Assembly (NCBI RefSeq): GCF_026226615.1
Contig: NZ_JAJAPB010000002.1
Coordinates: forward strand, 310,001 to 374,000
Direction of reading: 5' to 3'
Length of the DNA stretch: 64,000 bases
From: Geovibrio ferrireducens
GTDB taxonomy: Bacteria; Chrysiogenota; Deferribacteres; Deferribacterales; Geovibrionaceae
The notes beneath the pieces were generated by a model. It was not told where the DNA came from and searched no databases. It was given only the letters and a program-made list of their open reading frames with translations. This document shows positions 21,188-38,862 of the stretch, one piece after another. Both the position numbers and the translations under genes were made by a program. How positions within the stretch are numbered: position 1 is the first letter of the stretch; every line of letters starts with the position of its first letter.

Positions 21188-24130
21188 CTAAATAAGCTTG
21201 TTAGTATTGAGAACCAAAACCGCCTGCCCGTCTCCCAGAATGGTAATACCGCCGACATATGACAAATGTGCGAAATATTCAGGAACCGGCTTGATAGCTA
21301 TATCTATGCGGTTTATAAGTTCGTCCACCATAAGGCCGACTTTTCCCATGTCGGTGTTGGTGATAACTATGCACACCTCTTCGGGCAGCTCTCCGGGTTC
21401 TTCGTCCAGAAGCCCCTTCATGCTGTAAAGAGGCAGCACCATCCCCCTGTAATGAACTGCAAGGCCGTAGTGCAGATCCTTGATTTTTTCTTTGGGTAAT
21501 TTGATTGTTTCCGCTACATTTTCTATGGGTATGGCATAAACAACTGAACTGAGTTTAACCAGCAGAGCAGTGGAAACGCCTATGGTTACAGGTATTTTCA
21601 GCACAAACCTTGAGCCTTCGCCCATTGTGGACTGTATATCTACAAAGCCGCCCAGGTTCACAACGCATGTCTTCACCACATCCATTCCCACACCGCGGCC
21701 GGATATATCCGTAACCTTTTCCGCTGTGGAGAAGCCGGGTTCAAGTATAAGCTGCATTATCTCCTTCTCACTGAGCTCTGCATCCGCAGCTATCAGCCTG
21801 TTGGATATTGCCTTCGCCCTGACCCTTGCGGTGTCTATCCCCTTGCCGTCATCAATCACTTCGATATAAACAAAACTTCCTTCCTGATAAGCCTTAAGGA
21901 TAATAGTGCCTGATGGGGTTTTCCCGGCCTTCTGTCTGTCCTCCGGCATCTCCACCCCGTGGTCGCAGGAGTTGCGGAGGAGATGCACAAGGGGATCACT
22001 GAGCAGGTCAGCCACTTTTTTATCTATCTCAGTGTCCTCGCCTATTATACGCAGGTCGATCTGCTTGCTCTGTTTTCTTGATATATCTCTGACAACTCTG
22101 GGGAATTTCTGAAAAACCTGCCTGATGGGAATCATCCTGAGCGACATTATATCCCTTTGCAGATCCTGAGAGATCCTCGCAATGAGATTAGCATTGTCCT
22201 TAAGCTCCTTCACAAGGGCGGAAGGAAGGCCGTATTCTCTGGCTATCTTCTGGATCAGGTATTCGTTGGCGTTCTTGGCCACCACAAGCTCGCCTATGGT
22301 GTTGGTAAATTTGTCTATCTTCTCCTGTTCCACCTTCATTGTGCCGCTTCCGGCGTCCTGCTGAGGCAGTCCTGCCGCCTGCTGCTTGGCAGATGTGGGT
22401 ACGCCTTCGCGGGCGCTGCCCGCCACGGCTTTCATAACTTCCTGTTTTTTCAATACCTTATCCAGATCTTCCTTCTCCAGCTTGCCCTCTTCGACAAGTA
22501 TGTCGCCGAGTTTTTTCTGCTTGCTGAGAGCATCCTGAATATCCCCCTCAGTGATTTTACCGTCACGGATAAGGAGCTCGCCCAACATTCTGGGCGGTGA
22601 TTTAAGATCTTCAAGGTATTTGAGAATCCTTTCCATATGCGCGTCAAACGGTTTGGATTCCTTTATACATTTTTCAAGGTCTTCTGCTATTGCGTACAGA
22701 TCATCAAAGCCGATGAATCTGGCTGCGTTTTTCAGGCCGCCCGCTCCCCTGAGCACTTGCCTGACATCTATCTGCCCGTCTTCGGAGGCTATATTTATGA
22801 TTTCGATGAACTGCTCAAGCTGCTTGATGAATATTTTCACTTCCTCATTCACAACGGTCATGGAACTTTTCATGGACTCAAGGCTTGATGTGAGGTTTTT
22901 AAGCGTGCGGTATGAGGAAGGAACAGGTGTGGTTCCCTTCTTGGTGAGGTTTGAGAGCATCTCCCTTATATCACTGACCACAGCGAGGATAATGTCCGCC
23001 GCTTTTTTGTCGAACATAATACGTCCGCTTCTGATGTCATCCAGAACACCTTCCACAAGGTGCGCAAACTCCTCCAGAAAACGGAAGCCCACATAGCCGC
23101 AGTCACCCTTTATTGTGTGGAAAACGCGGAAAAGATCGTCAATGCCGGGGCCTGAGCCGCTGCCGCTCTTCTCAAGTTTAAGCGTTACAGACTCTATGGA
23201 TTCGAAATAATCTTCAATACTGGAAGCCAGTTCACCCAGAAGCTCGGCGTCTATGCCCTCCATTGTTATATCATCTCCGTGGGAGACGGGAGCCGCCGGA
23301 ATGTCTTCTTCCGTGCTATCCGCCGCTTCATCAGCTTCCGCCGCAGGGGCAGGTTCATCAAGGGAAGCTGCTGAGACAGTCACGACTCCGGGCTCAAACC
23401 CGAAGTCAGCCAGATCGGCCGCATCAAGCTCGCTTATTATGTAAACCTCCGGGCGGAGGTAAATTTCAAAGGGGTTAAGCTTATCCAGAGATGGAACAGC
23501 CGCTGCATCCGTTTTGCAGAAATATTCGGCAGAGCTCATTTTCAGGTTGGACATGACGGGAACAGGGTCATAGCCGTTTTCAAGCATTTCGGATGTGAAA
23601 TGGAAATCAGCCCTGTAGATGCTGCCCTGCTTCCTTCCTGCTGCGCGGAGCTTTTCCCGTATATCAGTGCAGGAAACATAAGCAGATGCCCCGTCCGCAC
23701 TCTCCGCAGGTGCAGTCCCCTTCGTCTCCGGTGCGGTGTCAGCCTTCTGGTTCATGTAACTTTCAAGCTCGGCTATTATCCCTGCCTCATCAACAGAATA
23801 CTCCCTGCCCTCTTTGGCGGCTGTGACCATTTCGTAAATCCCGTCTGCTGCTTTGAGAATACTGTCAACAAGTTCGCCCGATACCTCAAGCTCCTTGTTG
23901 CGAAGCCTGTCCAGCAGGGTTTCAAGGTGGTGTGTAAATGCTGATATATGCTCGAAGCCGAAGCCTGCGGCGCTGCCTTTTATTGTGTGAATAGAGCGGA
24001 ATACGGAATTAACAAGCTCCGGATCGTCATCCGCCTCTATCTTAAGAACATCCTCGTTTACCTGTTCCAGAAGTTCCGCCGCCTCGTCAAGGAACGACCT
24101 GCGGAACTTTTCCATATCAATTTCGACCAT
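21188..24130 (-). CDS. cheA: CheA histidine kinase with several Hpt domains and an LGE repeat
   Basis: 980-residue cytoplasmic kinase, larger than ordinary CheA (~650). In order: Hpt 1 (phospho-His H48 in SIHTIKGSA); a linker domain ~150-235; Hpt 2 (H338 in FHTIKGDCG); a third Hpt-like bundle ~425-500 in which the His is lost (VLRGAGGLKNAARFIG); tandem LGELLIRDGKITEGD.. / LGDILVEEGKLEKED.. motifs at ~516-563; the P3 dimerisation helices; a HATPase domain with N and G boxes (LLRNSCDHG, DDGKGID, GRGVGMDVV); and a C-terminal CheW-like domain. Two functional phosphorylation sites suit several CheY partners. The LGE repeat resembles the N-terminal module of GspE/MshE ATPases. GGGGTGGGG before the ATG. 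Confidence 0.93.
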   Translation of the reverse strand: MVEIDMEKFRRSFLDEAAELLEQVNEDVLKIEADDDPELVNSVFRSIHTIKGSAAGFGFEHISAFTHHLETLLDRLRNKELEVSGELVDSILKAADGIYEMVTAAKEGREYSVDEAGIIAELESYMNQKADTAPETKGTAPAESADGASAYVSCTDIREKLRAAGRKQGSIYRADFHFTSEMLENGYDPVPVMSNLKMSSAEYFCKTDAAAVPSLDKLNPFEIYLRPEVYIISELDAADLADFGFEPGVVTVSAASLDEPAPAAEADEAADSTEEDIPAAPVSHGDDITMEGIDAELLGELASSIEDYFESIESVTLKLEKSGSGSGPGIDDLFRVFHTIKGDCGYVGFRFLEEFAHLVEGVLDDIRSGRIMFDKKAADIILAVVSDIREMLSNLTKKGTTPVPSSYRTLKNLTSSLESMKSSMTVVNEEVKIFIKQLEQFIEIINIASEDGQIDVRQVLRGAGGLKNAARFIGFDDLYAIAEDLEKCIKESKPFDAHMERILKYLEDLKSPPRMLGELLIRDGKITEGDIQDALSKQKKLGDILVEEGKLEKEDLDKVLKKQEVMKAVAGSAREGVPTSAKQQAAGLPQQDAGSGTMKVEQEKIDKFTNTIGELVVAKNANEYLIQKIAREYGLPSALVKELKDNANLIARISQDLQRDIMSLRMIPIRQVFQKFPRVVRDISRKQSKQIDLRIIGEDTEIDKKVADLLSDPLVHLLRNSCDHGVEMPEDRQKAGKTPSGTIILKAYQEGSFVYIEVIDDGKGIDTARVRAKAISNRLIAADAELSEKEIMQLILEPGFSTAEKVTDISGRGVGMDVVKTCVVNLGGFVDIQSTMGEGSRFVLKIPVTIGVSTALLVKLSSVVYAIPIENVAETIKLPKEKIKDLHYGLAVHYRGMVLPLYSMKGLLDEEPGELPEEVCIVITNTDMGKVGLMVDELINRIDIAIKPVPEYFAHLSYVGGITILGDGQAVLVLNTNKLI

Positions 24131-24141
24131 ACCCCACCCCG

Positions 24142-24507
24142 TCAGGAAATACCGAGAAGCATTTTTATGTTGATTATAAGTTCCTCAGGTTTCACAGGCT
24201 TGGTTATGTACAGGTTTGCGCCGGACATATAGCCTTTTCTGCGGTTTTCCGCTTCTTCCTGAGTGGTAATAATTATTACGGGCGTTTCTTTCCCTGTTTT
24301 TCTGAGCTCTTTTATAAAGGTGATTCCGTCCATTCTGGGCATGTTCAGATCGCACAGAATGAGGGAAAATGAGCTTCTCACAGCTTTCTCAAGAGCGTCC
24401 ATGCCGTCTATTGCCTGTTCGGTGTCAAAACCGGCAGACTTGAGAATATTGGCGTGAAAGTGCCTCACCATGTCCGAATCATCAACTATCAGAACTTTAA
24501 ACGCCAT
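24142..24507 (-). CDS. CheY-like response regulator
   Basis: 121-residue receiver with VLIVDDSD, phosphoacceptor Asp in LILCDLNMPRMDG, Thr in IIITTQE and Lys in ITKPVKP: all five canonical CheY positions. No effector domain, so it acts by protein contact. The chosen ATG follows AAGGGGTGAG and lies just after the cheR stop; an upstream in-frame start would overlap cheR without a ribosome-binding site. It sits between cheR and cheA, so is probably a direct CheA substrate. Confidence 0.9.
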   Translation of the reverse strand: MAFKVLIVDDSDMVRHFHANILKSAGFDTEQAIDGMDALEKAVRSSFSLILCDLNMPRMDGITFIKELRKTGKETPVIIITTQEEAENRRKGYMSGANLYITKPVKPEELIINIKMLLGIS

Positions 24508-24511
24508 CGTC

Positions 24512-25345
24512 TCACCCCTTGTAATAAACGACATTTCTGCCGTACCGCTTGATGGAGAAAGCTGTTGTTATGCGGCCGACTGATTCGCTGTGGCCAAGAA
24601 AGATGTAGCCGCCCCTGTTGAGGGCTATGTAGTAGTGATCAACAACCTGCTTTCTTGAGATCTCATCAAAATATATAAGCACGTTCCGGCAGAAGATGAA
24701 GTCAAAGCCTCTCTGCCGTCTCATCTGCATTTTATCGTTAAGGTTTATATGCTCAAAGCGAACCATATCCCGCACGGGTTTTATGGGAATGTGGCAGCCG
24801 TCAACGTAATTGAAGTACTTTGAGTAGTACTCCTCCGGCACATCCTTCACGCTTCTGTCGTCATAGCGGGCACTTTTCGCCTTTTCCAGAGCATTAAGGT
24901 CAATGTCCGAAGCGAGTATCTCCACGTTCCAGTTTTCATGCCTGTCCAGAAGTTCGCGCACTATGATCGCCAGAGTGTAAGGCTCCTCGCCTGTGGAGCA
25001 CCCGGCAGACCATATGCGTATGGTGTCGTCTTTATCCTTCTCCTTTTTCTCCGCTATCTCCTGAAGGCAGAATTCGGCAAAGACCTCCAGTGTGGAAAAT
25101 TCCCGGAAAAAGTAAGTCTCATTCACGGTGAGAAGGTTCATCAGCTCCTGAAACTCCTCCCCTTCACGGTCTTTGAATTTGAGAAAGCGTATATAATCCC
25201 TCGCAGATTCTATACCGAGGGAGGAAAGCCTTTTTTCAAGCCTTTTATTAATGAAATAGCGCTTCTTATCCTCAAAATTTATGCCGGACTTCTTGTAGAT
25301 AAAAGCCGTTAAATCTTTGTAATCCTCCAGGGTAACAACGAACAT
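24512..25345 (-). CDS. cheR: CheR chemoreceptor glutamate methyltransferase
   Basis: Transfers methyl groups from SAM to receptor glutamates, opposing CheB. 277 residues: N-terminal helical CheR domain, then TVNETYFFRE, the SAM-binding IWSAGCSTGEEPYTLAI, the DFIFCRNVLIYFD segment and LGHSES, all hallmarks of CheR. No TPR extension. The ATG abuts the HEAT-protein stop directly, so the two are translationally coupled. Confidence 0.96.
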   Translation of the reverse strand: MFVVTLEDYKDLTAFIYKKSGINFEDKKRYFINKRLEKRLSSLGIESARDYIRFLKFKDREGEEFQELMNLLTVNETYFFREFSTLEVFAEFCLQEIAEKKEKDKDDTIRIWSAGCSTGEEPYTLAIIVRELLDRHENWNVEILASDIDLNALEKAKSARYDDRSVKDVPEEYYSKYFNYVDGCHIPIKPVRDMVRFEHINLNDKMQMRRQRGFDFIFCRNVLIYFDEISRKQVVDHYYIALNRGGYIFLGHSESVGRITTAFSIKRYGRNVVYYKG

Positions 25346-26410
25346 CTACTGCTTCGCTATCAGCGCCCTGAGGCTGAGAAGCTCTTCCTTGGAATCACCT
25401 TCAGCAACCTTAAGCCTGCGTTCAATTATTTTAAGCGTTTTTTCCCTGTTGAGTCCGGCCAGCTTGTCCAGCGCGGCAAGCATCACATTCATATCATCCT
25501 CACCGGCGAACTCTTCAAAGATCTCTTCCTTGTCCTTGATACAGAGCCTGTAGGCAATGCCCATAAAGGTTATGCGGTTGTCGGAATCAAGGTTCTGGTT
25601 TTTGACTCCGTTGATAACGTATTTTTCATATTCGTAAGGGAGCACATCAACATTGTCCCGTATCATTATCTTAAGTATTGAGCCCGATATTTCATTAAAG
25701 AAAAGGGTATTCCTGTTGTTAAGAAAACCGAGCAGAAAAGGCAGATGCTCTCTGGAGCCGCATTCGGCGACCATCCGGAATACAGACGGCTTATAAAAGC
25801 TGTCCATATTCACACCGCCGAGTATATCGAGCACCGTATCCACCACGCTGCGTTTGGCGAGGTGGGTGAAAGTCTCTATGCAGGATATGCGGAGCATGGG
25901 CTCATTCGATGTTTCAAAAATTTCCAGTATATCGTTCAGGGATTCCTCGTCATTTATCTTGCCGAGGTACTCCACTGCGGTTATCTGCACATTAGGCGCT
26001 TTATCCCTCAGAGCCGCACGCAGGGCGGGAATACAGTATTTGGAGCCGGTGGCAACAAGGCTGTCCAGAATGAGCTTACGCACCTCTTTGTCGGAGTGAT
26101 CCATAATAGATGTCAGGTAAGGCACAGCATCCTCACCCTTTGAGCCGAAGATTTCTATTGCGCAGTTTCTTATGAAAGCATCTGTGGATTCGAAAAACTT
26201 GGCCACGGAAGCAAAATGCGGTGAAACATCAAGAAGTTTCAGCCCCTCCACTATGAGTTCCTTCACCATGCGGCTCTCCTCCTTCCGGAGTGCAGCTATA
26301 AGTTCAGGGATAAGCTCATCTGCGCGCAGGCTTATCACATCCTCCACGGCATACAGCCTTTCGGTTTCATCTTCATTCAAAAGAGAGGCTTTTATGCTCT
26401 GAATATCCAT
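25346..26410 (-). CDS. HEAT-repeat protein of the chemosensory operon
   Basis: 354 residues made of repeating helical pairs of ~31 residues with HEAT/PBS-lyase style signatures (for example DKEVRKLILDSLVATGSKYC, then APNVQITAVEYLGKI), running through most of the length. HEAT scaffolds bind proteins. HEAT-repeat genes occur in some other chemosensory clusters, where they are thought to be adaptor or regulatory parts. It is sandwiched between a cheY and cheR with no gap to cheR, so a partner among the methylation enzymes or response regulators is likely. No catalytic residues seen. Confidence 0.8.
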   Translation of the reverse strand: MDIQSIKASLLNEDETERLYAVEDVISLRADELIPELIAALRKEESRMVKELIVEGLKLLDVSPHFASVAKFFESTDAFIRNCAIEIFGSKGEDAVPYLTSIMDHSDKEVRKLILDSLVATGSKYCIPALRAALRDKAPNVQITAVEYLGKINDEESLNDILEIFETSNEPMLRISCIETFTHLAKRSVVDTVLDILGGVNMDSFYKPSVFRMVAECGSREHLPFLLGFLNNRNTLFFNEISGSILKIMIRDNVDVLPYEYEKYVINGVKNQNLDSDNRITFMGIAYRLCIKDKEEIFEEFAGEDDMNVMLAALDKLAGLNREKTLKIIERRLKVAEGDSKEELLSLRALIAKQ

Positions 26411-26441: not shown

Positions 26442-26804
26442 TCAGGGCACTATTTTTTTAACAACGGCAAGCAGATCCGCAGGTTTAAAAGGCTTCACAA
26501 CCCATGCCTTGGCGCCTGCTTTTCTCCCCTCTTCCTTCTTCTCCGCCTGAGATTCCGTAGTGAGCATGATGATCGGCGTAAACTTGTGCTTCGCCAGATT
26601 CTTCACTTCCTTAATAAGGGTTATGCCGTCCATATTGGGCATGTTAAGGTCGGAGATGATCAGGTTAAACCTGTCATTCTCAAGCTTTGTGAGTGCGTCT
26701 TTGCCGTCGCGGGCATCAACCACTTCATAGCCCGCGGATTTCAGCGTGGCGGCGACAAGCTGCCTCATGGTTATGGCATCATCGACTATCAGTATTCTCT
26801 TCAC
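26442..26804 (-). CDS. CheY-like response regulator
   Basis: 120-residue receiver starting with the sequence KRILIVDDAITMRQL; phosphoacceptor Asp in LIISDLNMPNMDG, Thr in IMLTTES and Lys in VVKPFKP. The start is a GTG with AGGGGG six bases before it; reading further upstream would run into the STAS gene. It is the second canonical CheY of the operon and resembles the regulators that pair with CheA in flagellar or type IV pilus control. Confidence 0.9.
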   Translation of the reverse strand: MKRILIVDDAITMRQLVAATLKSAGYEVVDARDGKDALTKLENDRFNLIISDLNMPNMDGITLIKEVKNLAKHKFTPIIMLTTESQAEKKEEGRKAGAKAWVVKPFKPADLLAVVKKIVP

Positions 26805-26817
26805 GCTGTTCCCCCTG

Positions 26818-27099
26818 TCATATAACCAGCCCGTAAAGCCCGATGACCCTTGAGACTTCACTGCTTTTTCCTGTTATTTCGTATTTTATTCCCTTCTCTT
26901 TCAATGTGTTCAGGAGAGAGACGAGTATATTTACAAAAGTTGTGTCCATCGTGCGCACAGCGGAAAGGTCAATCTCCGCAGCGGGTCTGGAATACAGATC
27001 CGCCCCTTTGAGCGCCTCCAGTGCTTCATCAGCCATGAAATTTTCGCACTCTTCGGGAAAAATGATTCTGACTTTTGATTTAAGAGGCTTTATATCCAT
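26818..27099 (-). CDS. STAS-domain protein
   Basis: 93 residues of STAS fold (anti-sigma antagonist type): AEIDLSAVRTMDTTFVNILVSLL is the conserved strand-helix that in SpoIIAA carries the phosphorylated Ser. Here the position is occupied by MDTTF, with Thr available. Small STAS proteins are common partners in non-flagellar or combined chemosensory clusters. I chose the ATG just after the cheB stop; an earlier TTG is in frame but lies inside cheB. Role as a switch or adaptor is inferred. Confidence 0.8.
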   Translation of the reverse strand: MDIKPLKSKVRIIFPEECENFMADEALEALKGADLYSRPAAEIDLSAVRTMDTTFVNILVSLLNTLKEKGIKYEITGKSSEVSRVIGLYGLVI

Positions 27100-27100
27100 A

Positions 27101-28165
27101 TCACCATCCCTTTTTGACAACTCTGTTAAGTTCCCACGCTATCTTGCCGCTGGGGAGCACAACATCCGCCCCTCCGCGGTCTATGGCTTCCTTGGGCATA
27201 CCGAAAACTATGCAGCTTTCCTCTGATTCGGCTATGGTATAGCCTCCTCCCTTTCTGATTTTCACCATGCTGTCTGCGCCGTCGTCACCCATGCCGGTCA
27301 TCAGAATGCCGACTGTTCTTGCGCCGAAGCAGTTTCTGACGGAATCCATCATTACATCCACACTGGGTACAAAGTGGTGTTCAGGCTTTTTTGTGAGCCT
27401 TATAATAATTTTGCCGCCGGGCTTTTTGTATAGTGTCATGTGGAAGCCGCCCTTGCCGAGATAGCATACACCGGGGCGGATCTCCTCCCCTGCTTCGGCT
27501 TCCTTAACATGTATCTTGCAGTATTCGTTCAGTCTTTTTGCATAGGTCGCCGTAAATGTAGGCGGCATATGCTGAACCATGAACAGTGCCGCGGGAAAGT
27601 TTTTGTCCAGTTCAGGCAGCACATCAAAAATAGTCTTGGGCCCCCCGGTGGATATTCCTATGCACACCGCCGGGTAGTCATCCAGTTCAAGAGGCTCAGG
27701 CTCTTCCGCTGTTTCCACGGTCAGCTTTTTCTTCATCGGTTTGGAGGTCTTCCGCCTGAGCTTCTTCACCCCTGTACCCGCTGCGGCCTTCACTTTCCAT
27801 ATGAGGTCGTCCATGACCTCGCCTATATTTACAGATACCGTTCCGCCCGGTTTTGCCACATAGTCAAACGCACCAAGCTCCATAGCCTCGAACGTGGTGG
27901 CCGCCCCTTCCTGAGTCAGAGAGCTCAGCATGATAACCGGACATATCTCTTCTTCTATGATAATGCACAGGGCAGTCAGTCCGTCCATGACAGGCATGTT
28001 TATATCCATGGTGATGACATCCGGCCTGAGAGCACGCGCTTTTGTCACACCGTCCTGTCCGTCTCTGGCTGTTCCGATAACCTCTATGTCCGGATCGGAT
28101 TCCAGCATTTCCCTGACTTTTTTCCGCATCAGAGCGGAATCATCCACAATAAGAACTTTTATCAT
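27101..28165 (-). CDS. cheB: CheB receptor methylesterase/deamidase
   Basis: Removes receptor methyl esters when phosphorylated. 354 residues: receiver domain with phosphoacceptor D54 (VITMDINMPVMDG), basic linker ~130-160, and the catalytic domain with Ser in GISTGGP (S172), His in VQHMPPTFT (H199) and Asp in GMGDDGA (D295), a complete triad. With cheR it makes this pathway capable of methylation-based adaptation. It follows the triple-CheW gene by 43 bases, the largest gap in the operon. Confidence 0.96.
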   Translation of the reverse strand: MIKVLIVDDSALMRKKVREMLESDPDIEVIGTARDGQDGVTKARALRPDVITMDINMPVMDGLTALCIIIEEEICPVIMLSSLTQEGAATTFEAMELGAFDYVAKPGGTVSVNIGEVMDDLIWKVKAAAGTGVKKLRRKTSKPMKKKLTVETAEEPEPLELDDYPAVCIGISTGGPKTIFDVLPELDKNFPAALFMVQHMPPTFTATYAKRLNEYCKIHVKEAEAGEEIRPGVCYLGKGGFHMTLYKKPGGKIIIRLTKKPEHHFVPSVDVMMDSVRNCFGARTVGILMTGMGDDGADSMVKIRKGGGYTIAESEESCIVFGMPKEAIDRGGADVVLPSGKIAWELNRVVKKGW

Positions 28166-28208: not shown

Positions 28209-29738
28209 TTATGATCCTATTTTCTCAAGCTTTTTCTTTTCCGCTTTGCTGAAAAGCTCATCAACATTAAGCAGAAGAATCATCCTCTGCCTGCTGCTGA
28301 GATTGACCACGCCGTCCAGAAACTGGCTGTCCACTCCGGCACTGAGCACAGCGGGCACGGAATCTATGCTGTCTGCCGGAACCCGGAGCACTTCGTCCAC
28401 AAAATCCACAACAAAGCCTACGCGTATATTCGCAAGGTTTACTATTATGACTCTGGTGAACTCATCCTTCTCACGCACGGGGAGTTCAAAGCGCCTTCTT
28501 AAATCTATAAGCGGCATAACCTCACCGCGGAGGTTAATTATCCCCTCCACAAAGGAAGGTGTTTTCGGCACTTTGGTAACATTGGTGTATCTGTTTATTT
28601 CCTGCACCTTTTCAATGAAGATTCCGTATTCCTCATCCTCAATGGTAAAGGTGACTATCTGTTTCTCCTCATCAGAAGAAGCTGATGCAGCGGTCATAGG
28701 GAAATTCCCTCCTTCCTGTCCGGCAAGTTTTTTAAGGGCTTCCACCTCTTTTTCATGGAGCAGGTTGGCACACTCCAGAATCATAACGAGCCTTTCACCC
28801 TGAGCAGCCTTGATTATGGAGGAGATCTCAGAGGCTCCGTTTCCTGCGAACACCTTCGGGGGCTCTTCAATGCAGGACTCCGTCACACTGAGCACTTCGC
28901 TCACTTTATCTGCTATGAAACCGACAAGGGTGTTTTCAATCTCGATTATTACTACTCTGGTATCTTCCGTTTCGCTTCTGTCCTTCTTCCCGAACTTTCT
29001 GTGGAGGGACATAAGCGGGATAACCCGCTCTCTCAGGGAGAAAATGCCCATTACATAGCTCTCCAGTCCCGGAACAGCCACATAATCAGGCAGGCGTATT
29101 ATCTCATTTATTTTGTGAATCTCTATTGCGTAGCCGTGTCCGTCTATTTCGAAACTGATGAAGCGCCTGTAATCGGAGGTTTCCTTTTCAGCCGCGTCAT
29201 TCTTGACGGCAAGCCCTCTCTGCGGGGAGCTGTCATCAAGCCTGCGCTGGATTTCCGCTATGTTCACAAGCTCTTTGGAATCCAGAACCTGAACAAGCCT
29301 TATGCCGTCCTTTGTGCTCATCTTGAGAACGCCTGAAATAAACTTTTTATCCGCGCCGCTGTTCAGCACCTCCGGCAGCTCTTCATATGTGCCGGATTCA
29401 GTGGATTTCACCTCGCTGACGGTTTCAACCACAAAGCCTATTTCAAGTCCGTTTTTTTCTGTGACAATCACCCTTGTGTCCTCTCCGCAGGTGCACGGGG
29501 TCTGATACCCCAGACGGAGAGAAAGATCCAGCACAGGGAGAACACTCCCCCTCAGATTGCTGATGCCGAGCACAAAGCCCGGCATTTTAGGCACACGGGT
29601 AATTTTAGGCATACGTATAATCTGCCTGACTTCATCTATTGCTATTCCGAAATACTCTGAACCAACAGTGAACGAAACATACTTTTTATCGGTATATTCC
29701 GCTCCGTCTACAGCCGCTGCCGGGCTCATTTCAGCCAT
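28209..29738 (-). CDS. Triple CheW-domain coupling protein
   Basis: 509 residues containing three complete CheW domains in series: ~18-170 (YVSFTVGSEYFGIAI..., ISNLRGSVLPVLDL), ~195-340 (FISFEIDGHGYAIEI..., FSLRERVIPLMSL) and ~355-505 (IVTFTIEDEEYGIFI..., IINLRGEVMPLIDL). Ordinary CheW is one domain (~165 residues) and bridges receptor tips to CheA. Three linked domains could crosslink neighbouring receptor trimers or CheA rings and stabilise an array. No separate single CheW lies in this operon, so this is presumably its sole coupling protein. GGAG ribosome-binding site before the ATG. Confidence 0.92.
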   Translation of the reverse strand: MAEMSPAAAVDGAEYTDKKYVSFTVGSEYFGIAIDEVRQIIRMPKITRVPKMPGFVLGISNLRGSVLPVLDLSLRLGYQTPCTCGEDTRVIVTEKNGLEIGFVVETVSEVKSTESGTYEELPEVLNSGADKKFISGVLKMSTKDGIRLVQVLDSKELVNIAEIQRRLDDSSPQRGLAVKNDAAEKETSDYRRFISFEIDGHGYAIEIHKINEIIRLPDYVAVPGLESYVMGIFSLRERVIPLMSLHRKFGKKDRSETEDTRVVIIEIENTLVGFIADKVSEVLSVTESCIEEPPKVFAGNGASEISSIIKAAQGERLVMILECANLLHEKEVEALKKLAGQEGGNFPMTAASASSDEEKQIVTFTIEDEEYGIFIEKVQEINRYTNVTKVPKTPSFVEGIINLRGEVMPLIDLRRRFELPVREKDEFTRVIIVNLANIRVGFVVDFVDEVLRVPADSIDSVPAVLSAGVDSQFLDGVVNLSSRQRMILLLNVDELFSKAEKKKLEKIGS

Positions 29739-29756: not shown

Positions 29757-31997
29757 TCAGTAAGCCTGCATCTCGTCTGCGAGAGAAGCAACCTCTTCCG
29801 ATGCGGCGGCTATTTCGTTAAGCCCTTTCACCTGCTCATCGGCTGCGAGCTTGGCTTCGTCTGTAAGTTTCCTGAGTTTTTCAGCAACTCCCAGACTCTC
29901 ACCGCAGGCAGTGTTGACTCTCACTACCATCTGACCGCCCTCTTCAAAGAATGCCTGAGAAACCCTGCGGGTTTCGGCGGCCGCAGCCCTGAGCCTTACA
30001 GTTTCCACAAGGTTCACCACTGCCACCTCAGACTTTTCGATCTGCACGCGGATAAGCTGACCTATCTCATGGAGCTCTGTCTGAAAGTTGTCAGTCTGCT
30101 CATACATCTCTTCAAGAATGTCCTTCATCTTATCAGCGTTATCGGCGGATTCGCTTGCCAGAGAGCGGATGTCTGCGGCTACCACGGAGAAACCTCTGCC
30201 GAATTCGCCGGAGCGGGCTGCCTCTATACTGCCGTTAACGGCGAGCATATTTGTCTGTATAGCGACATTATTTATGGTATCAACAATTTTTCTTATATTG
30301 CTAAATGATTTATAAAGCTGTTTAACCTCAGCGCTTATTTCCCTGATGCTTTCTATACTTTTGACAAAGCCCAGTGCCACAAGCTCTATACCGTTATGGA
30401 AGCCTCTGTATTCTTTTTTAAAGCCGTCAACTCCGGGAAGAACCTTGAGTTTAAAGACCTCCCTTGCTTCGCCGAGTTTCCCCTCTGCCATAAGCCGGAC
30501 TATCTCTCCCGCACCGAGGTGAACATGGTTGTGAGGCTCACGGATTGAGTGATAGCATTTCTCTTCATCATGGTCGTGGGGCTTATAGGTAAGATACCAT
30601 GCGCCGAACGCGCATTTTGTCGGGTCAAGCTGACCTTCAAAGGGCGTGTTGTTGTTGATAGCCGCTTCAAGCTGGTTTATGAAAACAATATGGTCAAGCG
30701 CTTTGATTTCCTCAAGATCCACAAGGATTTTCTCGCCTTCAACCATCATAATCGCCCAGCACTCGTTCCCTTCGTCAAGGAGTTTCTGCATGGTGTTGAA
30801 CTCATGCTTGATGCCGTCGAGTTCATCCCCCATTTCCTGAGTGCCTGTATCTATCTGGTCTATGGCCTTGAGTATCTCTTCCGCAGATGCGTTAAGTTCT
30901 TCTATCGTGGCCGAAAGCTCTTCTGCTGCCGCTGCCACTTCCTCGGATGATTTTGACATATCTGTCGAGTTTTTAAGCTCCTCTGACATTTCAGCTATTT
31001 CATTGGCGGCTGCGGTAAGCTCTGCGAATGCCTTTGCCTGCTCTTCGGTAAACTTGCTCACTTCCTCGGAGGCTGTGGCGTTCTGCTCCGTAGCGGCGGC
31101 AAGACGGTTCACTATGTCGAGGGATTTTCCGGATTCGATGCAGATGCTCTCTGAATCCTTCTTGATTTTCCCGACCTGCTCACGCATTATTTTGGCTGCT
31201 TCGTTTATGGCGATGCATTTATTGCTGATAAAATCCGCCTTGAAAAGGTTGGTTTTTGAGCCTTTTGTAAAGGTATTCACCTTTTCCACCACCCGGACAA
31301 CCTGTTCAAGGGAGGAATCGATTACTATTTTAATATCCTTTGCCGCTCCTTCAGAGACTTCCGCAAGGGTTCTCACCTCATCAGCCACAACGGCAAAGCC
31401 TTTTCCGTGTTCACCCGCTCTGGCGGCCTCAATGGCTGCGTTCAGCGCAAGAAGGTTGGTCTGATCCGCTATTTTTTTTACAACCTGAACTATCTGCTCT
31501 ATGGAGCCGGCCTTCTCTTTAAGCTGCTCCACAAGGGATGTGGATTCCACAACCTTGTTGGTGGTGTTGTCCACGCTTTCCCTGAGCTCCTTAACGGCGC
31601 CGACAGTGTTCTCCACGCGGTCGTTCATTTTGCTGATAGCAACATCATACTTGTTTGAGTTGTCATAAACCTTACGGCTCACCTGCTCAAGCTGAACAGT
31701 TTCGTTTTTGATGTTGTCGGAGGTTCTGCTGACCTGAGCAGAGGCAACCGTAACCTGAACCATAGCATCGCCAAGCTGATTAGCCGCACTGCTTGACTGT
31801 TCAATGGCAGAGGCCATCTCCTCAGATGCGGCGGCAAGCCTCTCCGCGTTTGCCTGCTGTTTGGCAAGGGTTCTGGTGCGCGCTTTTTCTGCGGCGGTTC
31901 TTTTGGCTTCATCACGCTTTTTCTGAAGCTCGACTCCCTCTTTTTTCACAAGCCCGGTTCTGCCTTCAAGGCTTGACGGCTTAGCCAGTTTTTTCAT
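29757..31997 (-). CDS. Soluble chemoreceptor with two signalling hairpins and a central CZB zinc-binding domain
   Basis: 746 residues with no transmembrane segment or signal peptide. Tip 1 lies at ~170-212 ([20 protein letters not shown]... [14 protein letters not shown]), between long coiled-coil arms ~50-165 and ~215-390. A chemoreceptor zinc-binding (CZB) domain follows at ~430-540, with H436, C462 in KCAFGAWY, the EPHNHVH cluster at 487-493 and H535 as likely ligands. Tip 2 lies at ~565-612 ([20 protein letters not shown]... [13 protein letters not shown]). Ordinary receptors have one tip. V. cholerae DosM is the known precedent for two. CZB domains in other receptors bind zinc and respond to oxidants such as HOCl. 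Strong GGAGG start. No CheR-docking pentapeptide at the C terminus. Confidence 0.92.
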
Positions 31998-32016: not shown

Positions 32017-33516
32017 TCAGAATATTTCCAATGTATTCAAAATTTCGTTTTCGATTTTAAGCCTGAGTGTGAAGTCTGTTTCTTTTTCATTGCGGACATC
32101 TCTGGCCTTGACGCTTATTATTCCGCTTTCGTCGATCATAAATGAAATATCAATTAAAGGCTCGCCGTCTTCCGGCACATCCAGTTCCACCGAGAACCTG
32201 CCCAGACTGACGAAGTGTTCGGGATTCTCCCTGACTGAATCCCCTGTATTAAGTGAAGATTTTGCCATATCCTGCAAAACATGAACAGTAATATTTTTCC
32301 GTTCCGGCTCAGAAGTGGTGAAAACCATACTGAACTCCACGGGGTAAACCTCGTTTTTCTTTAATATTACTTCGAAATTTCCGCTGTCATCCTCTATGCC
32401 GAGGTTATGGGAAGTGACATCATGGAACACCTTGTCGCTTATGAGCCCGGAAAGCATGGCGGCATTCACCGCAGCCCCGCTTACCACGGCCTCCTCCGGG
32501 TTCATGTCTTTTCTCACTCTGTCACCGAAAATGTCCGAAACAAGTCTGCGCACGCTGTGTATGCGTGAAGCTCCGCCCACGGGCAGAACTCTGGCTATAT
32601 CCTCAATACTGAGGCTGTTTGACTCAAGCAGGCTGTCGATAATGCTCTTTATCCCCTTGGTGAGGGGGGCTGTTATTTTGTCAAAGGTTTCTCTGGTTAT
32701 TGTTTCCTTGAAATGGAGTGCGCCGTTTTTGGTTACTGTGATGTAGGGAACCACAAGGTTAACCTCATTCAGGGAGGAAAGCTCCATCTTGGCTTTTTCG
32801 GCCTGAAAAAGAAGCTGCTGATAGGCTATGGGGTCGCTTTTAAGGTCTATGCCGTGCTGTCTGCGGAAGTTCTCTATGAAATAGTCCGCCACCATGACAT
32901 CAAAATCCACTCCGCCGATTTCGGTGGAGCCTCCGGTGAAAAGCACCTTGCAGCAGTCCGCCTTCATCTCGATAAGGCTTATATCCAGCGTGCCGCCGCC
33001 CAGGTCAAAAACCATGCACACGTCACCTGTGTTTTTCCCTATGTTATTATAAAAAAGAGCAGCCGAGGTGGGCTCATTCAAGAGGCGCAGGACATTAAAC
33101 CCAGCATTCTCAGCGGCTGAGCGCACCGCTTCCCTCTGGTAATGGTCAAAATAAGCGGGAACAGTGACAACCGCGTCCGCCTCTTTCTCGCCGGAGTAAT
33201 CTTCAAAGCTTTTCTTAAGCTTGCGGAAAATAAGCGAGGCGAGTTCCTCCGCCCTGTACTCCCTTCCGTAAAGAGGGAACAGCATATCTGTTCCCATGTA
33301 TCTCTTTATGTTGGCAATGGTATGCTCTGATTCGAGAAGCTGCATACTCTTTGCATTATCGCCAATTACAGCCTCGTTTTCGTTTTTGAAATATATCACA
33401 GACGGCAGGTATCTCTTGCCGCTTTCGGAGCTTATTATGTCTATTATTCCGCCGTCCCTGCATACGGCTATCATGGAGTTGCTTGTTCCGAAATCTATCC
33501 CGACGCAGCGTTTCAT
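32017..33516 (-). CDS. Short Hsp70 (DnaK-like) protein
   Basis: 499 residues against ~640 for DnaK. The nucleotide-binding domain is complete: phosphate loops [14 protein letters not shown] and [29 protein letters not shown], and adenosine motif [16 protein letters not shown] beta-sandwich substrate domain follows (~385-490), but the C-terminal helical lid is missing. The interdomain linker, DVLLLD-like in DnaK, reads [14 protein letters not shown] here. No grpE or dnaJ is adjacent. It overlaps parA by four bases and leads into the chemoreceptor gene, so it is a dedicated member of the chemosensory operon, perhaps for assembly or remodelling of the array. That role is inference. Confidence 0.88.
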
Positions 33517-34301
33517 TTCTTTGCTCCCGCTTCTTCCTCGATTTTACTGAGGATGTAATCGGTCAGAATGCTGAAATCCATAGCCCCTCTGCTGGCGGGA
33601 GCGTAAAGATTCATGGGAAGCCTGGCCTCCGGCGCCTCGGCGATTTTGACATCGCTCCTTATTCTGGGAGTTACCATGTCCTCCCCGAAGTTTTCATAAA
33701 GCTCCTTCATAACCTTTTTGGCGTGGTTGCTTCTTATATCATGCTGATTGGGGATGATGCCCATAATCCGCAGATCCGGATTGTGCGCCATGTTTATGCG
33801 GTAAATATTCTGGGCAAGCTGCGCCAGCCCTTCAATGGCAAGAAAATTCAGGAGAACGGGAATAAGCACGAATCTGGAAGCCACAAGGGCGTTCAGCGTG
33901 AGCACCGCAACAGTCGGGGGCGTATCAATGAGAACATAGTCATACTTCTCTTTGATATTCATGAGACATTTTGTGAGCTTGGCCTCTACGCTTACTCCGT
34001 CAAGGAGCCTGCGCAGGTCATGGTGAGAGAAGCCCGTGGATGCAGGTATAATGTCATACAGCCCGTGAGGGGGTCTGAAAACCGCGTCCTGCGCGGAATA
34101 TTCACCCAGCACCGCACCGTAGATATTGGGATAGGTGTCATAGGTGTTCACGCCGGACCAGTAGGAGAGATGCGCCTGCGGGTCAAGATCTATGAGAAGA
34201 ATCTTTTTCCCCCTGCCGCCTGCCGCCGCGCCTATATTAAGAACAGCGGAGGTTTTGCCGCTCCCTCCTTTTTTATTTGCGAAAGTAATTATTTCTCCCA
34301 T
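33513..34301 (-). CDS. ParA-family partition ATPase
   Basis: 262 residues. Deviant Walker A NKKGGSGKTS near residue 10 with the signature Lys, switch I DLDPQAHLS and Walker B YVLIDTPP mark the ParA/MinD group. Without a MinD amphipathic tail, it is more ParA-like. No ParB gene or parS-like repeats are present. ParA homologues in chemosensory loci (PpfA, ParC) place receptor arrays in the cell, and being first gene of this operon suggests the same. I chose the ATG giving the N-terminal GEIITFANKK; an upstream TTG would add 13 unlikely residues. There is no Shine-Dalgarno site. Confidence 0.87.
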   Translation of the reverse strand: MGEIITFANKKGGSGKTSAVLNIGAAAGGRGKKILLIDLDPQAHLSYWSGVNTYDTYPNIYGAVLGEYSAQDAVFRPPHGLYDIIPASTGFSHHDLRRLLDGVSVEAKLTKCLMNIKEKYDYVLIDTPPTVAVLTLNALVASRFVLIPVLLNFLAIEGLAQLAQNIYRINMAHNPDLRIMGIIPNQHDIRSNHAKKVMKELYENFGEDMVTPRIRSDVKIAEAPEARLPMNLYAPASRGAMDFSILTDYILSKIEEEAGAKK

Positions 34302-34310
34302 AATGTCTGA

Positions 34311-34340
34311 ATAATAGCATGCCGAAGGTGTTCCGCGCAA
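34311..34340 (-). promoter_or_regulatory. Candidate promoter of the chemosensory operon
   Basis: Minus-strand TATTAT (34316-34311) ends nine bases before the parA ATG; 18 bases upstream is TTGCGC (34340-34335), a weak -35. A start here would leave only ~2-4 untranslated bases, consistent with the absence of a ribosome-binding site. Confidence 0.35.
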
Positions 34341-34583: not shown

Positions 34584-34617
34584 AAAAAGCGGGCGGGCTG
34601 TTCCACCCGCTTTTTTT
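34584..34617. terminator. Bidirectional terminator between tRNA-Arg and the PAS gene
   Basis: AAAAAGCGGG (34584-34593) pairs with CCCGCTTTTT (34606-34615), flanked by A-runs on one side and T-runs on the other, so it can end both the tRNA transcript and the nar/PAS transcript from the opposite strand. The PAS stop codon lies inside its T-run. Confidence 0.9.
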
Positions 34618-34979
34618 TATCTCTGGGTAACATCTCTGACAATTGCGGTGAATCCCGCGCTTTTACCTTCCTGTTCAATAATCTGCATACTGAACTCTAT
34701 TATAAGCTTTTCGCCGTCTTTCCGTATGGCCGGAACCTTGAGCATTCTGCCGGAATAGGCTGTCCGCCCGGTTTCAAGAACCTTGTAAAAACCGTCCCAG
34801 TGTCTTTTCCTGTGTTTTTCGGGGATAATAATATCAAGATTCGCCCCCGCGGTCTCAGCGGCGGAAAAGCCGAAAATTCTTTCACAGCCTCTGTTCCAGT
34901 AAGCAATATTTCCGTCCGCAGTTACATACATTATTCCGTCGTCCGCCTTCTCAGCCATCTGAAAAATAATATCCTTCAT
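34617..34979 (-). CDS. Stand-alone PAS-domain protein at the end of the nitrate operon
   Basis: 120 residues consisting of one PAS domain: EKADDGIMYVTADGNIAYWNRGCERIFGFSAAE at the start, the P-x-x-H-R-x-x-H segment (IPEKHRKRHWDGF) typical of sensor PAS folds, and a C-terminal IVRDVTQR cap. No kinase, cyclase or DNA-binding part follows. It could bind heme, flavin or a small ligand and act through another protein. Its start overlaps the narK stop by four bases (ATGA), which ties it to nitrate respiration. Function unknown. Confidence 0.85.
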   Translation of the reverse strand: MKDIIFQMAEKADDGIMYVTADGNIAYWNRGCERIFGFSAAETAGANLDIIIPEKHRKRHWDGFYKVLETGRTAYSGRMLKVPAIRKDGEKLIIEFSMQIIEQEGKSAGFTAIVRDVTQR

Positions 34980-36280
34980 CTGCCGCCTCTCTTCTCTGAC
35001 CTTTTAAGGAAAAATATCAGCAGCACCGACAAAGCCGCCATCAGGGTATAAACCATGAAGCCCTGTCTGTAGCCCGCGTCGCCGTTTCTGCCCACATATG
35101 AGGCGAGAACAGGGGGCAGCACAAAGCCGCCGAAGGCTCCAAGTCCGCCGACCCAGCCCGCCGCACCGCCTATGGCTTCGGGAATATATTTCGGAACGAG
35201 TTTGAAAACTGCCGCATTATTAACCCCCATGCCTATCGCCATAAGCATTATGCCGAAAACGGTGAGAGCGAAGTTTCCGGTGAACACCACAATAACCGAA
35301 CCTGCGCCCAGAACGGCAACAGATATGAGCGATGCCGCCGTTCCCCCTATTTTATCAGCAAAACTGCCCCCCGGCACACGGAAAAGCGAAGTGAGCACCG
35401 CATAAAACGCAGTGAGGAAACCTGCCGCAGTGACGGAAAAGCCGTACAGCGACTGCCAGAATGTCGGGAACCACGCAGTGAGTGCGATAAACCCGCCGAA
35501 GGTTACGAAATAAAGCAGCACGAGCATCCACGTATACGGATTGGAGGCTGATTTGACAAGGGTGTACACCACGCCGCCGGAAGGGAAAAGCTCCTGCTTC
35601 TGCGAAGCCTCAGAGTAAAGGTCAGCGGCAAATCCCTTCGCATCCTCGGCTGAAGCCCCCTGTGACAGTGCCTGAAAATACGGCGCATTGAACGCGGTAA
35701 ACCAGTAAACGCACACCCCGGTGAGGAGGATCAGGCTCCAGACGACATAAGCAGCAGGAAGGGACATTACGGATAAAGCCAGAGGCAGCAGGAACGAAAA
35801 TATCCCCGGAGCGAGGTTCCCCAGCCCGCCGAAGGTTCCAAGAGCCCAGCCCTGCTTCTTCTGCGGAAACCAGTAGGCCACCTGACTTATCCCCACTGAG
35901 AATGTGGCTATGCCGCAGCCGCTGAGAAAACCGAAGAAAAGGATCAGCGGGTAAAGTTCCGCTGTCATGTTGTCCGGGTATCTGGTGAGAAAAAGGGCAG
36001 ACAGCCCCACCATTCCGGTAAGCGCAAGCAGAAGGAGAACCATAAACGGTTTCCGCCCGCCGTCCTTATCCACCCATGCGGAAAAAGGGATGCGCAGAAG
36101 CGAGCCGGACAGGGCGGGGATAGCCACCAGCAGCCCCACCTGCGCAGGGCTTATGCCCATTATCACCTGCAGTTTTTTTGCCGTCGGCCCGAAAAGGGCA
36201 ACCGCCGCAAAACCGAAGAAGAAACCAAGAGTGGCTCCCGTAAGCCCCTTGAGGGGTGAGCCTTTTGCTGTGTAGTTCAT
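34976..36280 (-). CDS. narK: NarK-type nitrate/nitrite transporter
   Basis: 434-residue major facilitator with 12 predicted membrane spans. The nitrate-signature glycine segments are present: FGGLGNLAPGIFSF in the first half and the counterpart near GGAAGWVGGLGAFGGFVLPP in the second; FVTFGGFIALTAWFPTFWQ is the usual helix-7 region. It brings nitrate in for NarG or exports nitrite. A single NarK domain, not the fused NarK1-NarK2 seen in some denitrifiers. AAGGAGAGG ribosome-binding site; 12 bases after narI. Confidence 0.92.
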   Translation of the reverse strand: MNYTAKGSPLKGLTGATLGFFFGFAAVALFGPTAKKLQVIMGISPAQVGLLVAIPALSGSLLRIPFSAWVDKDGGRKPFMVLLLLALTGMVGLSALFLTRYPDNMTAELYPLILFFGFLSGCGIATFSVGISQVAYWFPQKKQGWALGTFGGLGNLAPGIFSFLLPLALSVMSLPAAYVVWSLILLTGVCVYWFTAFNAPYFQALSQGASAEDAKGFAADLYSEASQKQELFPSGGVVYTLVKSASNPYTWMLVLLYFVTFGGFIALTAWFPTFWQSLYGFSVTAAGFLTAFYAVLTSLFRVPGGSFADKIGGTAASLISVAVLGAGSVIVVFTGNFALTVFGIMLMAIGMGVNNAAVFKLVPKYIPEAIGGAAGWVGGLGAFGGFVLPPVLASYVGRNGDAGYRQGFMVYTLMAALSVLLIFFLKRSEKRGGR

Positions 36281-36292
36281 AGCTGCCTCTCC

Positions 36293-36952
36293 TTATTTAT
36301 TCCATCTGAATATTATGTGCGGGCGGAAAGGATATTTCAGCGGCACGGCAAAAACATGAATCAGCCTTGTGAACGGCAGAGCCGCAATAATCAGGAACAT
36401 GTTAAGAACATGGAGCCTGACGACAAGGGGCAGAGCGGTTATCACATCCCCCTGCGGGCTGAATTTCAGCACGGAGAGAACATAAACAGAGGCGTTCGAG
36501 GCATACCAGTTGATGCCCCATTTGTGAAATGCCGAAATATAAAGCCCGCTGAGCACCTGAAAAACAAGGAGTACAAGCACAAGCCAGTCTCCCGCCTGAG
36601 TCTGGGAGAGTGCGTATCTGTCCGAAAGTTTCCTCAGAATCAGCGCGCCAAGCCCGAAAAGGCAGAGAAGACCCGCCGAAAAGGCAAGGGTTTCAAGGGC
36701 TGCGAGCACCCCCAGATTTCCAGTGAGCCTCAGCACAAAAGACGGCGCAATAATTCCGATCACGTGTCCGGTGAGGACAATGATTATTCCGTAATGCCAC
36801 GGAACAGAGCCCCACAGCTTTCTGTTTTCCAGAAACCCGCCTGCGCGGGTGCTTATTCTGTACCTGTTGTTCCCGTAAGCAGTCACTGTACCGAAAACAG
36901 CAGCGGCCAGAGCAATATATGGGAATATATTAAAGAATGTGTTCCAGTTCAT
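36293..36952 (-). CDS. narI: Respiratory nitrate reductase gamma subunit, cytochrome b
   Basis: Membrane diheme cytochrome b that oxidises quinol and passes electrons to NarH. ~220 residues with five hydrophobic helices. Likely heme ligands are the His residues in HYGIIIVLTGHVIG and those in RLHVLNMF...TRLIHVF, spaced as in the family. The ATG follows GGGAGGGG and overlaps the end of narJ by 23 bases; an earlier in-frame start lacks a ribosome-binding site. Confidence 0.95.
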   Translation of the reverse strand: MNWNTFFNIFPYIALAAAVFGTVTAYGNNRYRISTRAGGFLENRKLWGSVPWHYGIIIVLTGHVIGIIAPSFVLRLTGNLGVLAALETLAFSAGLLCLFGLGALILRKLSDRYALSQTQAGDWLVLVLLVFQVLSGLYISAFHKWGINWYASNASVYVLSVLKFSPQGDVITALPLVVRLHVLNMFLIIAALPFTRLIHVFAVPLKYPFRPHIIFRWNK

Positions 36953-37457
36953 CTTCCCCTCCCTTGAGGCATTCATCAGCAAATTTCTGCAAAGAGCGGT
37001 AAATCAGCCCGTAGGCGCTTTTTTCAACAGCAGATGCGGAGGCGATGCATTCCGCCGCGCGGGAGACCGCCTCTGTCAGCTCCGTACATTCCCTTTCTCC
37101 CCTGAAACTTATAAATTCCAGCAAAATCGGGATGTAATCCGGCAGTTCGCCCTGTGTCCGTTCAAAACCGGCAGAGGCGTATTTACCCGCCAGTTCCGCC
37201 ATAAAGCCCGCCCGCCTTCTTTCATCGCTGAAAAGGTGAAAGGCGGCATAGGGCGCTGTGTCCTTTCCGAAATCGAAAATCCTTGTAAACTCCTCCTGAA
37301 GTGCGCCTGTATCCGGCGGTATAAGGGCGAAGCACCCTTCCGCCAGCCCTGCGTATTCCAGTCTGCGGCAGTGTTCCCTCACAGCGGACAGGTCAGACGG
37401 ATAATCCGTCAGTACGGAGAAGGATTTAAATATATTTTCAGCGCTTGTTTTTTCCAT
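36930..37457 (-). CDS. narJ: Nitrate reductase assembly chaperone NarJ
   Basis: 175-residue, soluble, helical protein of the NarJ/TorD/DmsD family, needed to insert the molybdenum cofactor into NarG before membrane attachment. Family features seen are the SVLTDYPSDLSAVREH start, the LQEEFTRIFDFGKDTAPYA segment and the acidic C terminus. Length and position between narH and narI are standard. It overlaps narH by 20 bases. Confidence 0.92.
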   Translation of the reverse strand: MEKTSAENIFKSFSVLTDYPSDLSAVREHCRRLEYAGLAEGCFALIPPDTGALQEEFTRIFDFGKDTAPYAAFHLFSDERRRAGFMAELAGKYASAGFERTQGELPDYIPILLEFISFRGERECTELTEAVSRAAECIASASAVEKSAYGLIYRSLQKFADECLKGGEDELEHIL

Positions 37458-38862
37458 GGTTCAAAAACCCCTCTGCACCCTGCATTTCGTATGAGCAGCC
37501 GTTCTCCCTGCGGGACTTGGGTATCACGAATCTTCCTGCAAAATTGGTAAGGGACGTAAGCCTGTAAGCCTTTTCGAGATCCTGCCCGTTCCAGCCGGAA
37601 AGAGACACGCCCTTTTCCATAAGCTCATTGTCATCAAGCCCCTTGCCGCGCATGTAACTCCTTATGCCCAGCAGTTTTTTCAGCGTATCCTCCACAGCAG
37701 CCTCGTTGCCTGCGGTGAACACCGAAGCCAGATACTTAACCGGAATGCGGAAGTTTTCCATTGTCATATCCGTTTCCGCCTTGCGCAGAACAGGCGACAG
37801 GGAAGGAACATAAAACACCATGGGGAATGTCCTGAACTCCGGGTGGAGCGGCAGGGCAAGTCCGAACTCCTTCACGAAGGCATACACAGGGGAATTTTCC
37901 GCCGCCTGAATCCAGTCCGGTTCTATGCCCGCCTTTTTCGCGTTCTTTCTGACCTCCGGATCGGAAGGGTCGAGGATACAGCTTCTCAGAGCATCAACAA
38001 GGCTTTCCTCCGGCGCGTCCAGAACCTGAATGAGCCTGTCGTAATCGTAAAGGAGAACTCCCGTGTAGCGGATGCGCCCTACGCATGAATGAGCGCAGGC
38101 GGAGGGTTCGCCGTTTTCGCTTTTCGGATAGCAGAAGATGCACTTCTCCGACTTGCCCCTGTCCCAGTTGTAATAGATTTTTTTGTAGGGGCATGCGCTG
38201 ACACAGTATCGCCACGCACGGCATTTTTCCTGATCGTTCAGGACTATGCCGTCCTCCCCCCGCTTATAGATCGAGCCGGAGGGGCAGGCAGCCGCGCACG
38301 CCGGATTGAGGCAGTGGTTGCACAGACGGGGAAGGTACATCATAAAAATTTTCTCAAACTCGCCGAAAAGCGCCCTGTCCTCATCTGTGAGGTTGGGGTC
38401 ATTCGCCGCGTATTTCTTTGAACCGCCGAGGTCATCGTCCCAGTTGGGGCCTGCCTCAATATTCATGCTTTCGCCCGTTACGCGGGATTTGGCTCTGGCT
38501 ATGGGCTGGTTAGCACTTTCCGGAGCGTCCATGAGATTGGCGTAGTCATATGTGAAAGGCTCGTAGTAATCTTTCATCACTGGCTGGTCGGGATTATGAA
38601 AAATACGTGAGAGTATTCCCCATTTGGAGCCCGCCCTGAGCACGGGGGAGCCGTCCTTTATCTCCCAGCCGCCGCGGAATTTTGCCTGATCCTCCCAGTT
38701 TTTCGGGTAGCCGGTGCCGGGACGTGTCTCAACATTGTTCCACCACATGTATTCCGTCCCTTTTCTGTTTGTCCAAAGGTTCTTGCAGGTGACGGAGCAG
38801 GTGTGGCAGCCTATGCATTTATCAAGATGAAGAACCATCGAAAGTTGCGCCCTGACATCCAT
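37438..38862 (-). CDS. narH: Respiratory nitrate reductase beta subunit
   Basis: Iron-sulfur subunit linking NarI hemes to NarG. 474 residues with four cysteine groups: CIGCHTCSVTC near the N terminus, CNHCLNPACAAACP, CRAWRYCVSACP (Trp in place of one Cys, which gives the family's [3Fe-4S] cluster), and CIFC with ACAHSC. The W substitution and the GTEYMWWNNVETRPG insert are diagnostic for NarH. Two bases separate it from narG. Confidence 0.97.
   Translation of the reverse strand: MDVRAQLSMVLHLDKCIGCHTCSVTCKNLWTNRKGTEYMWWNNVETRPGTGYPKNWEDQAKFRGGWEIKDGSPVLRAGSKWGILSRIFHNPDQPVMKDYYEPFTYDYANLMDAPESANQPIARAKSRVTGESMNIEAGPNWDDDLGGSKKYAANDPNLTDEDRALFGEFEKIFMMYLPRLCNHCLNPACAAACPSGSIYKRGEDGIVLNDQEKCRAWRYCVSACPYKKIYYNWDRGKSEKCIFCYPKSENGEPSACAHSCVGRIRYTGVLLYDYDRLIQVLDAPEESLVDALRSCILDPSDPEVRKNAKKAGIEPDWIQAAENSPVYAFVKEFGLALPLHPEFRTFPMVFYVPSLSPVLRKAETDMTMENFRIPVKYLASVFTAGNEAAVEDTLKKLLGIRSYMRGKGLDDNELMEKGVSLSGWNGQDLEKAYRLTSLTNFAGRFVIPKSRRENGCSYEMQGAEGFLNHGKNKR

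Follow-up and report, generated by a model that had tools for sequence, protein, structure and literature searches.

A gene encoding a double-headed soluble chemoreceptor with a CZB domain that is predicted to bind zinc (CZB-DosM) was identified in Geovibrio ferrireducens, within the window of 64,000 nucleotides that was analysed. The receptor consists of two helical hairpins in tandem, each with a signalling tip, and the CZB domain interrupts the second of them. The gene belongs to a cluster of the F9 class, which is defined by the double-signalling-domain receptor (DosM) together with CheW3 (PMC9321776). With somewhat better than even confidence, CZB-DosM is read here as an F9 scaffold receptor with an in-line zinc/redox sensor that acts mainly on head 2; in this way the scaffold would probably be a sensor of zinc or the redox state in its own right. 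The receptor gene and its parts are given below.

29757..31997 (-), CZB-DosM, double-headed CZB chemoreceptor of 746 aa (by ORF, Pfam and orthologues)
31866..31997 (-), basic N-terminal tail, residues 1-44, predicted disordered over 1-21, with the motif MKKLAxP..RTG[IL]xxK
30966..31865 (-), hairpin 1, residues 45-344, arms of 150 + 150 residues
31362..31490 (-), signalling tip 1, residues 170-212 (by the MCPsignal profile)
30702..30959 (-), first part of the ascending arm of hairpin 2, residues 347-432, 86 residues past the helix break at 344-346
30393..30698 (-), CZB domain inserted in the arm, residues 434-535, 102 residues
29760..30392 (-), rest of hairpin 2, residues 536-746 (60 up to the tip, 150 down)
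30156..30284 (-), signalling tip 2, residues 572-614 (by the MCPsignal profile and the Tsr alignment)

The open reading frame (29757-31997, minus strand, stop included) starts with an ATG that is preceded by GGAGG, a ribosome-binding-site-like sequence. The MCPsignal profile of Pfam gives 201.5 bits summed over CZB-DosM. Scored by themselves in a genome search with this profile (cut-off 34.6 bits), tip 1 reaches 115 bits (E 5e-33) and tip 2 reaches 92.2 bits (E 5e-26), and the two MCP tips claimed in an earlier note on this DNA were thus recovered as two signalling domains and not one. The tip turns are R193-A194-G195-E196 and R595-S596-G597-E598, respectively. Tip 2 aligns along its length with the tip of Tsr (PDB 1qu7; E 3e-15); its sequence departs from classical tips, and the variant is common to the DosM relatives and strongly conserved. 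The CZB profile (PF13682) matches residues 436-500 with 44.4 bits against a curated cut-off of 29.4 (Pfam), between the tips as claimed. No membrane span is present in the AlphaFold2 model, and the maximum 19-residue Kyte-Doolittle mean is 0.91, in agreement with the further claim that the receptor lacks one. Over its full length, the protein is conserved (61-95% identity) in 11 of the 12 genomes of Geovibrionaceae, and its arrangement is therefore not a product of chance. The same genome also contains two other CZB open reading frames, of 500 and 651 aa, with one tip each (G000:C20:5912-6103 and G000:C10:65304-65492).

The neighbouring genes all lie on the same strand (-), in the order ParA, Hsp70, receptor, CheW3, CheB, STAS, receiver, HEAT, CheR, receiver and CheA.

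33513..34340 (-), ParA-like ATPase with the deviant Walker A motif KGGSGKT
32017..33516 (-), Hsp70/DnaK paralogue, 499 aa, matching DnaK positions 1-494 of 625
28209..29738 (-), CheW3, three CheW domains, 509 aa, the F9 signature partner (Pfam, 337 bits, 3 stretches)
27101..28165 (-), CheB (Pfam)
26818..27120 (-), STAS-domain protein (Pfam)
26442..26861 (-), CheY-like receiver (by sequence)
25346..26410 (-), HEAT-repeat protein (Pfam)
24512..25345 (-), CheR (Pfam)
24142..24534 (-), CheY-like receiver (by sequence)
21188..24130 (-), CheA with three Hpt stretches (Pfam)

Because the F9 cluster is complete (CheA, CheR, CheB, CheYs and CheW3), the CZB receptor is a DosM, and the likeness to DosM proposed earlier now stands as tested kinship beyond resemblance. 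Among the first 80 database loci, 65 two-tip DosM were tabulated, and each of these has CheW3 nearby. The one member of the family without DosM (G007) lacks CheW3 as well, and a genome of the sister family (G025) contains both.

Several further features of the locus were observed. The Hsp70 gene lies immediately upstream of the CZB-DosM gene in the window, and the paralogue that it encodes within the F9 cluster (32017-33516) is apparently without the lid. The peptide TG[ILVM]xxK occurs, across Deferribacterota, Desulfobacterota and Bacillota, in the N-terminal tail of 14 of the 15 DosM whose locus includes an Hsp70 gene and in none of the 62 without one, loci with at least 1.8 kb upstream being counted; the loci concerned are the window, L064-L069, L071, L131, L204, L208, L216, L218 and L220. 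This peptide may be a docking tag, shared ancestry being an alternative. A role of TG[IL]xxK as a ParA tag was rejected, since the peptide tracks the Hsp70 gene and not ParA. The ParA-like ATPase gene (33513-34340) near the receptor is comparable to PpfA beside TlpT in Rhodobacter sphaeroides, where a ParA-like gene likewise lies beside the receptor of a cytoplasmic cluster and TlpT is proposed to stimulate PpfA through its N-terminus, in the manner of ParB; TlpT differs in having 567 aa, a single MCP coiled coil and no CZB. The ParA-like ATPase may serve to position the array in the cytoplasm. The genes that come next upstream on this strand (34617-38862) encode a small PAS protein, a NarK-like transporter and, apparently, NarI, NarJ and NarH. 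A link of these nar genes to the F9 cluster was discarded, as their linkage is not conserved in relatives: the PAS gene alone is kept upstream in L064, and neither it nor the nar genes are kept there in the other relatives checked.

The anatomy of the rod was deduced from comparison with DosM that lack CZB. In all 96 CZB-less two-tip DosM open reading frames, the tips are separated by exactly 300 residues (a few loci in the comparison represent one gene more than once), whereas the distance is 402 residues in the CZB-DosM of Deferribacterota and 403 in two metagenome-assembled genomes (MAGs). Self-sliding alignment of five CZB-less DosM gave a sharp peak at 300 for each, and DosM is therefore a tandem duplication of a hairpin. 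In CZB-DosM and its family, residues 45-104 are repeated at an offset of 300, and those from about 145 to 344 at an offset of 402. These two offsets confine the insertion to the stretch from about 405 to 547 and give it a length of 102 residues. The methylation-like motifs give the same figure, lying 135 and 128 residues ahead of tip 1 and 237 and 230 ahead of tip 2, distances that become 135 and 128 when 102 is subtracted. As a separate observation, the 300-residue spacing in 96 of 96 CZB-less DosM (L064-L203, five phyla) appears to be a molecular ruler for two-layer arrays.

The AlphaFold2 model (monomer; mean pLDDT 88, pTM 0.65) contains a helix over residues 21-343, a break at 344-346, a helix over 347-432, four CZB helices between 434 and 530, and a helix over 536-745 that contains tip 2. 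Tip 2 is thus predicted to be part of a long helical hairpin; burial in a globular domain, which would have spoken against the earlier note, is not seen in the model. The distance from tip 1 to the helix break is 150 residues, as is that from tip 2 to the C-terminus. Judged from the sequence, CZB interrupts the arm of hairpin 2 that ascends to tip 2 and leaves the 300-residue scaffold unchanged; about 60 residues separate it from tip 2 and about 240, CZB itself not counted, from tip 1. A position of CZB at the midplane of the rod was ruled out, because both the AlphaFold2 model and the internal repeat place it in hairpin 2. In a comparison of the full-length model with the PDB, the matches were MCP coiled coils and otherwise coiled-coil noise.

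V. cholerae DosM, which acts as the scaffold receptor in cytoplasmic arrays of two layers, has been described by cryo-tomography as an extended rod with one tip in each baseplate (PMC7534058). A straight helix of 300 residues measures about 45 nm, which exceeds the baseplate spacing of 35 nm measured in V. cholerae, and the rod may therefore not be fully extended. This excess length, together with the break that AlphaFold2 places exactly at the midplane and the variant sequence that tip 2 shares with the DosM relatives, would fit a receptor that does not bridge two layers and is folded at 344-346, with both heads in one baseplate or with head 1 alone docked. Such an arrangement is considered improbable, since the V. 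cholerae rod is reported to extend across both layers (PMC7534058) and tip 2 matches the Tsr tip along its length and is strongly conserved.

The putative zinc site was examined by conservation, and four residues are predicted as ligands.

30690..30692 (-), H436, predicted Zn ligand (conservation)
30612..30614 (-), C462, predicted Zn ligand (conservation)
30531..30533 (-), H489, predicted Zn ligand (conservation)
30519..30521 (-), H493, predicted Zn ligand (conservation)

All four are conserved without exception in the 11 orthologues of the family and in both MAG sequences, and they form the canonical 3His/1Cys set (H..CxxGxW..HxxxH); their counterparts in TlpD are H315, C340, H368 and H372, respectively (PMC12871147). 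The ligands proposed earlier were accordingly upheld for H436, C462, H489 and H493 and lost for H535, where the residue is N; the adjacent H534 is not conserved and was likewise rejected. A His/Cys cluster at 474-482 was also discarded, being confined to close relatives. The top PDB match of the CZB model in Foldseek is the CZB domain of DgcZ (3t9o), a weak match (E 0.023, TM 0.52/0.56); at the sequence level, the CZB stretch had no PDB match up to E 1.

The strict invariance of the ligands is also what would be expected if CZB were a structural zinc clip that is permanently bound, stiffens the scaffold and senses nothing, and a published survey classes 98% of DosM as scaffolds only (PMC9321776). 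Nevertheless, the 96 CZB-less DosM have the identical 300-residue scaffold and no clip, and CZB sites are described as metastable sensors (PMC12871147), which leaves a purely structural role with little probability beside the sensor reading.

Of the 51 Deferribacterota genomes, 11 contain a full-length orthologue of CZB-DosM, and all 11 are among the 12 genomes of Geovibrionaceae; the DosM of G025 is without CZB. A scan of bacterial genomes with a tip-2 profile identified 412 relatives, and among the best 80 of these 412, CZB-DosM was found in two MAGs, L071 and L070 (labelled Desulfobacterales, Deltaproteobacteria). In phylum samples, with scoring limited to the few best candidates of each genome, DosM-like second tips were present in 14 of 395 Desulfobacterota, 7 of 398 Pseudomonadota and 43 of 398 Bacillota genomes. 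CZB occurred in just one of these sampled DosM genomes, that of L071 itself, and none was found in the sampled DosM of Bacillota and Pseudomonadota. In a tree built without the CZB columns, CZB-DosM forms one side of a branch with 100/100 support that also carries a long-branch warning. One origin of CZB-DosM, in either direction (gain or loss), is the simplest reading. Matches to tip 2 were also found in 10 plasmid records (matched on tip 2).

A mechanism can be proposed by analogy with known families. The CZB-DosM dimer would form an extended rod whose heads dock in two opposed CheA/CheW3 baseplates, as in V. cholerae DosM. The CZBs would bind Zn2+ and flank the continuous arm at about the distance from the tip that is found in TlpD, in which they straddle the coiled coil and begin 68 residues from the tip apex (PMC12871147). 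Loss of zinc, through oxidation or a drop in free Zn2+, would then shift hairpin 2 and the CheA under its control. In TlpD, the zinc-bound form favours active CheA and a distorted zinc site shifts the tip (PMC12871147), and a 2026 preprint proposes that CZBs read the redox state via free zinc (PMC13370339).

CZB lies off the midplane, in the half of the rod that carries head 2, and the main effect of zinc is accordingly expected on that head. Head 1 is some 240 scaffold residues away and past the predicted break, and equal control of the two layers by one molecule is therefore not expected. The suggestion that the receptor alters both baseplates at once has to be modified in this respect, since the short distance between CZB and tip 2 points first to head 2. 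If rods stand in both orientations in the lattice, however, the input would still reach both baseplates. More tentatively, and with rather less than even confidence, zinc occupancy of CZB may set the activity or the assembly of the two-layer array, with head 2 first and a possible coupling, by way of the helix that the heads share, to head 1 in the opposite baseplate.

It has also to be considered that CZB governs how the F9 array is assembled, positioned or dispersed, and not kinase activity: zinc occupancy would stiffen or break the arm of hairpin 2, and arrays would come and go with the zinc or redox state. The array of V. cholerae is reported to require DosM for its formation (PMC7534058), oxidative stress moves TlpD off the pole (PMC12871147), F9 assembly is reported to be conditional on starvation or low oxygen (PMC9321776), and in CZB-DosM it is a structural arm that CZB interrupts. 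The studied CZB domains, on the other hand, are described as tuning kinase or cyclase output by zinc occupancy (PMC12871147), and no feature of the locus points to regulated assembly. Control of assembly in place of kinase activity is for these reasons regarded as unlikely, and an in-line sensor acting on head 2 remains the favoured reading.

CZB-DosM combines features of several known systems. The DosM of the V. cholerae F9/cluster I system (VC1403), compared by description, likewise has two tandem tips, no membrane span and a cluster with CheW3 and CheA/CheR/CheB/CheY, and the CZB-less DosM homologues found here have the same tandem-duplicated 300-residue hairpin. TlpD of Helicobacter pylori and TlpD-like receptors (e.g., Salmonella McpA) are also soluble and contain a 3His/1Cys CZB about 60-68 residues from the tip; TlpD consists of one hairpin with a C-terminal CZB, whereas CZB-DosM has two hairpins and carries CZB on the ascending arm of the second. 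A CZB fold may also be shared with DgcZ of Escherichia coli (PDB 3t9o, 4h54), the best, though weak, PDB match noted above, in which an N-terminal CZB is attached to a GGDEF domain without an MCP part.

The embedded CZB sets the Geovibrio receptor apart from the 98% of DosM that contain two signalling domains only, according to the main text of a survey of 2,781 species (PMC9321776), where CZB occurs only in a reference title. A survey of 10,140 CZB sequences distinguishes seven architectures, none of which has two signalling domains in its text. A CZB between two tips, which the earlier note had regarded as undescribed, is thus absent from the main text of both family surveys; a supplementary table may list such DosM among the approximately 2% of exceptions.

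DosM has been described as sensor-less, and the input of F9 arrays has been assumed to come from other receptors (PMC9321776). The 300-residue spacing of the DosM relatives represents a separate structural constraint. The location of the putative sensor inside the coiled-coil arm, and not at its end, could reveal how far a signal travels each way along the rod, and CZB-DosM suggests zinc, and by way of zinc the redox state, as a concrete candidate stimulus for an F9 array.
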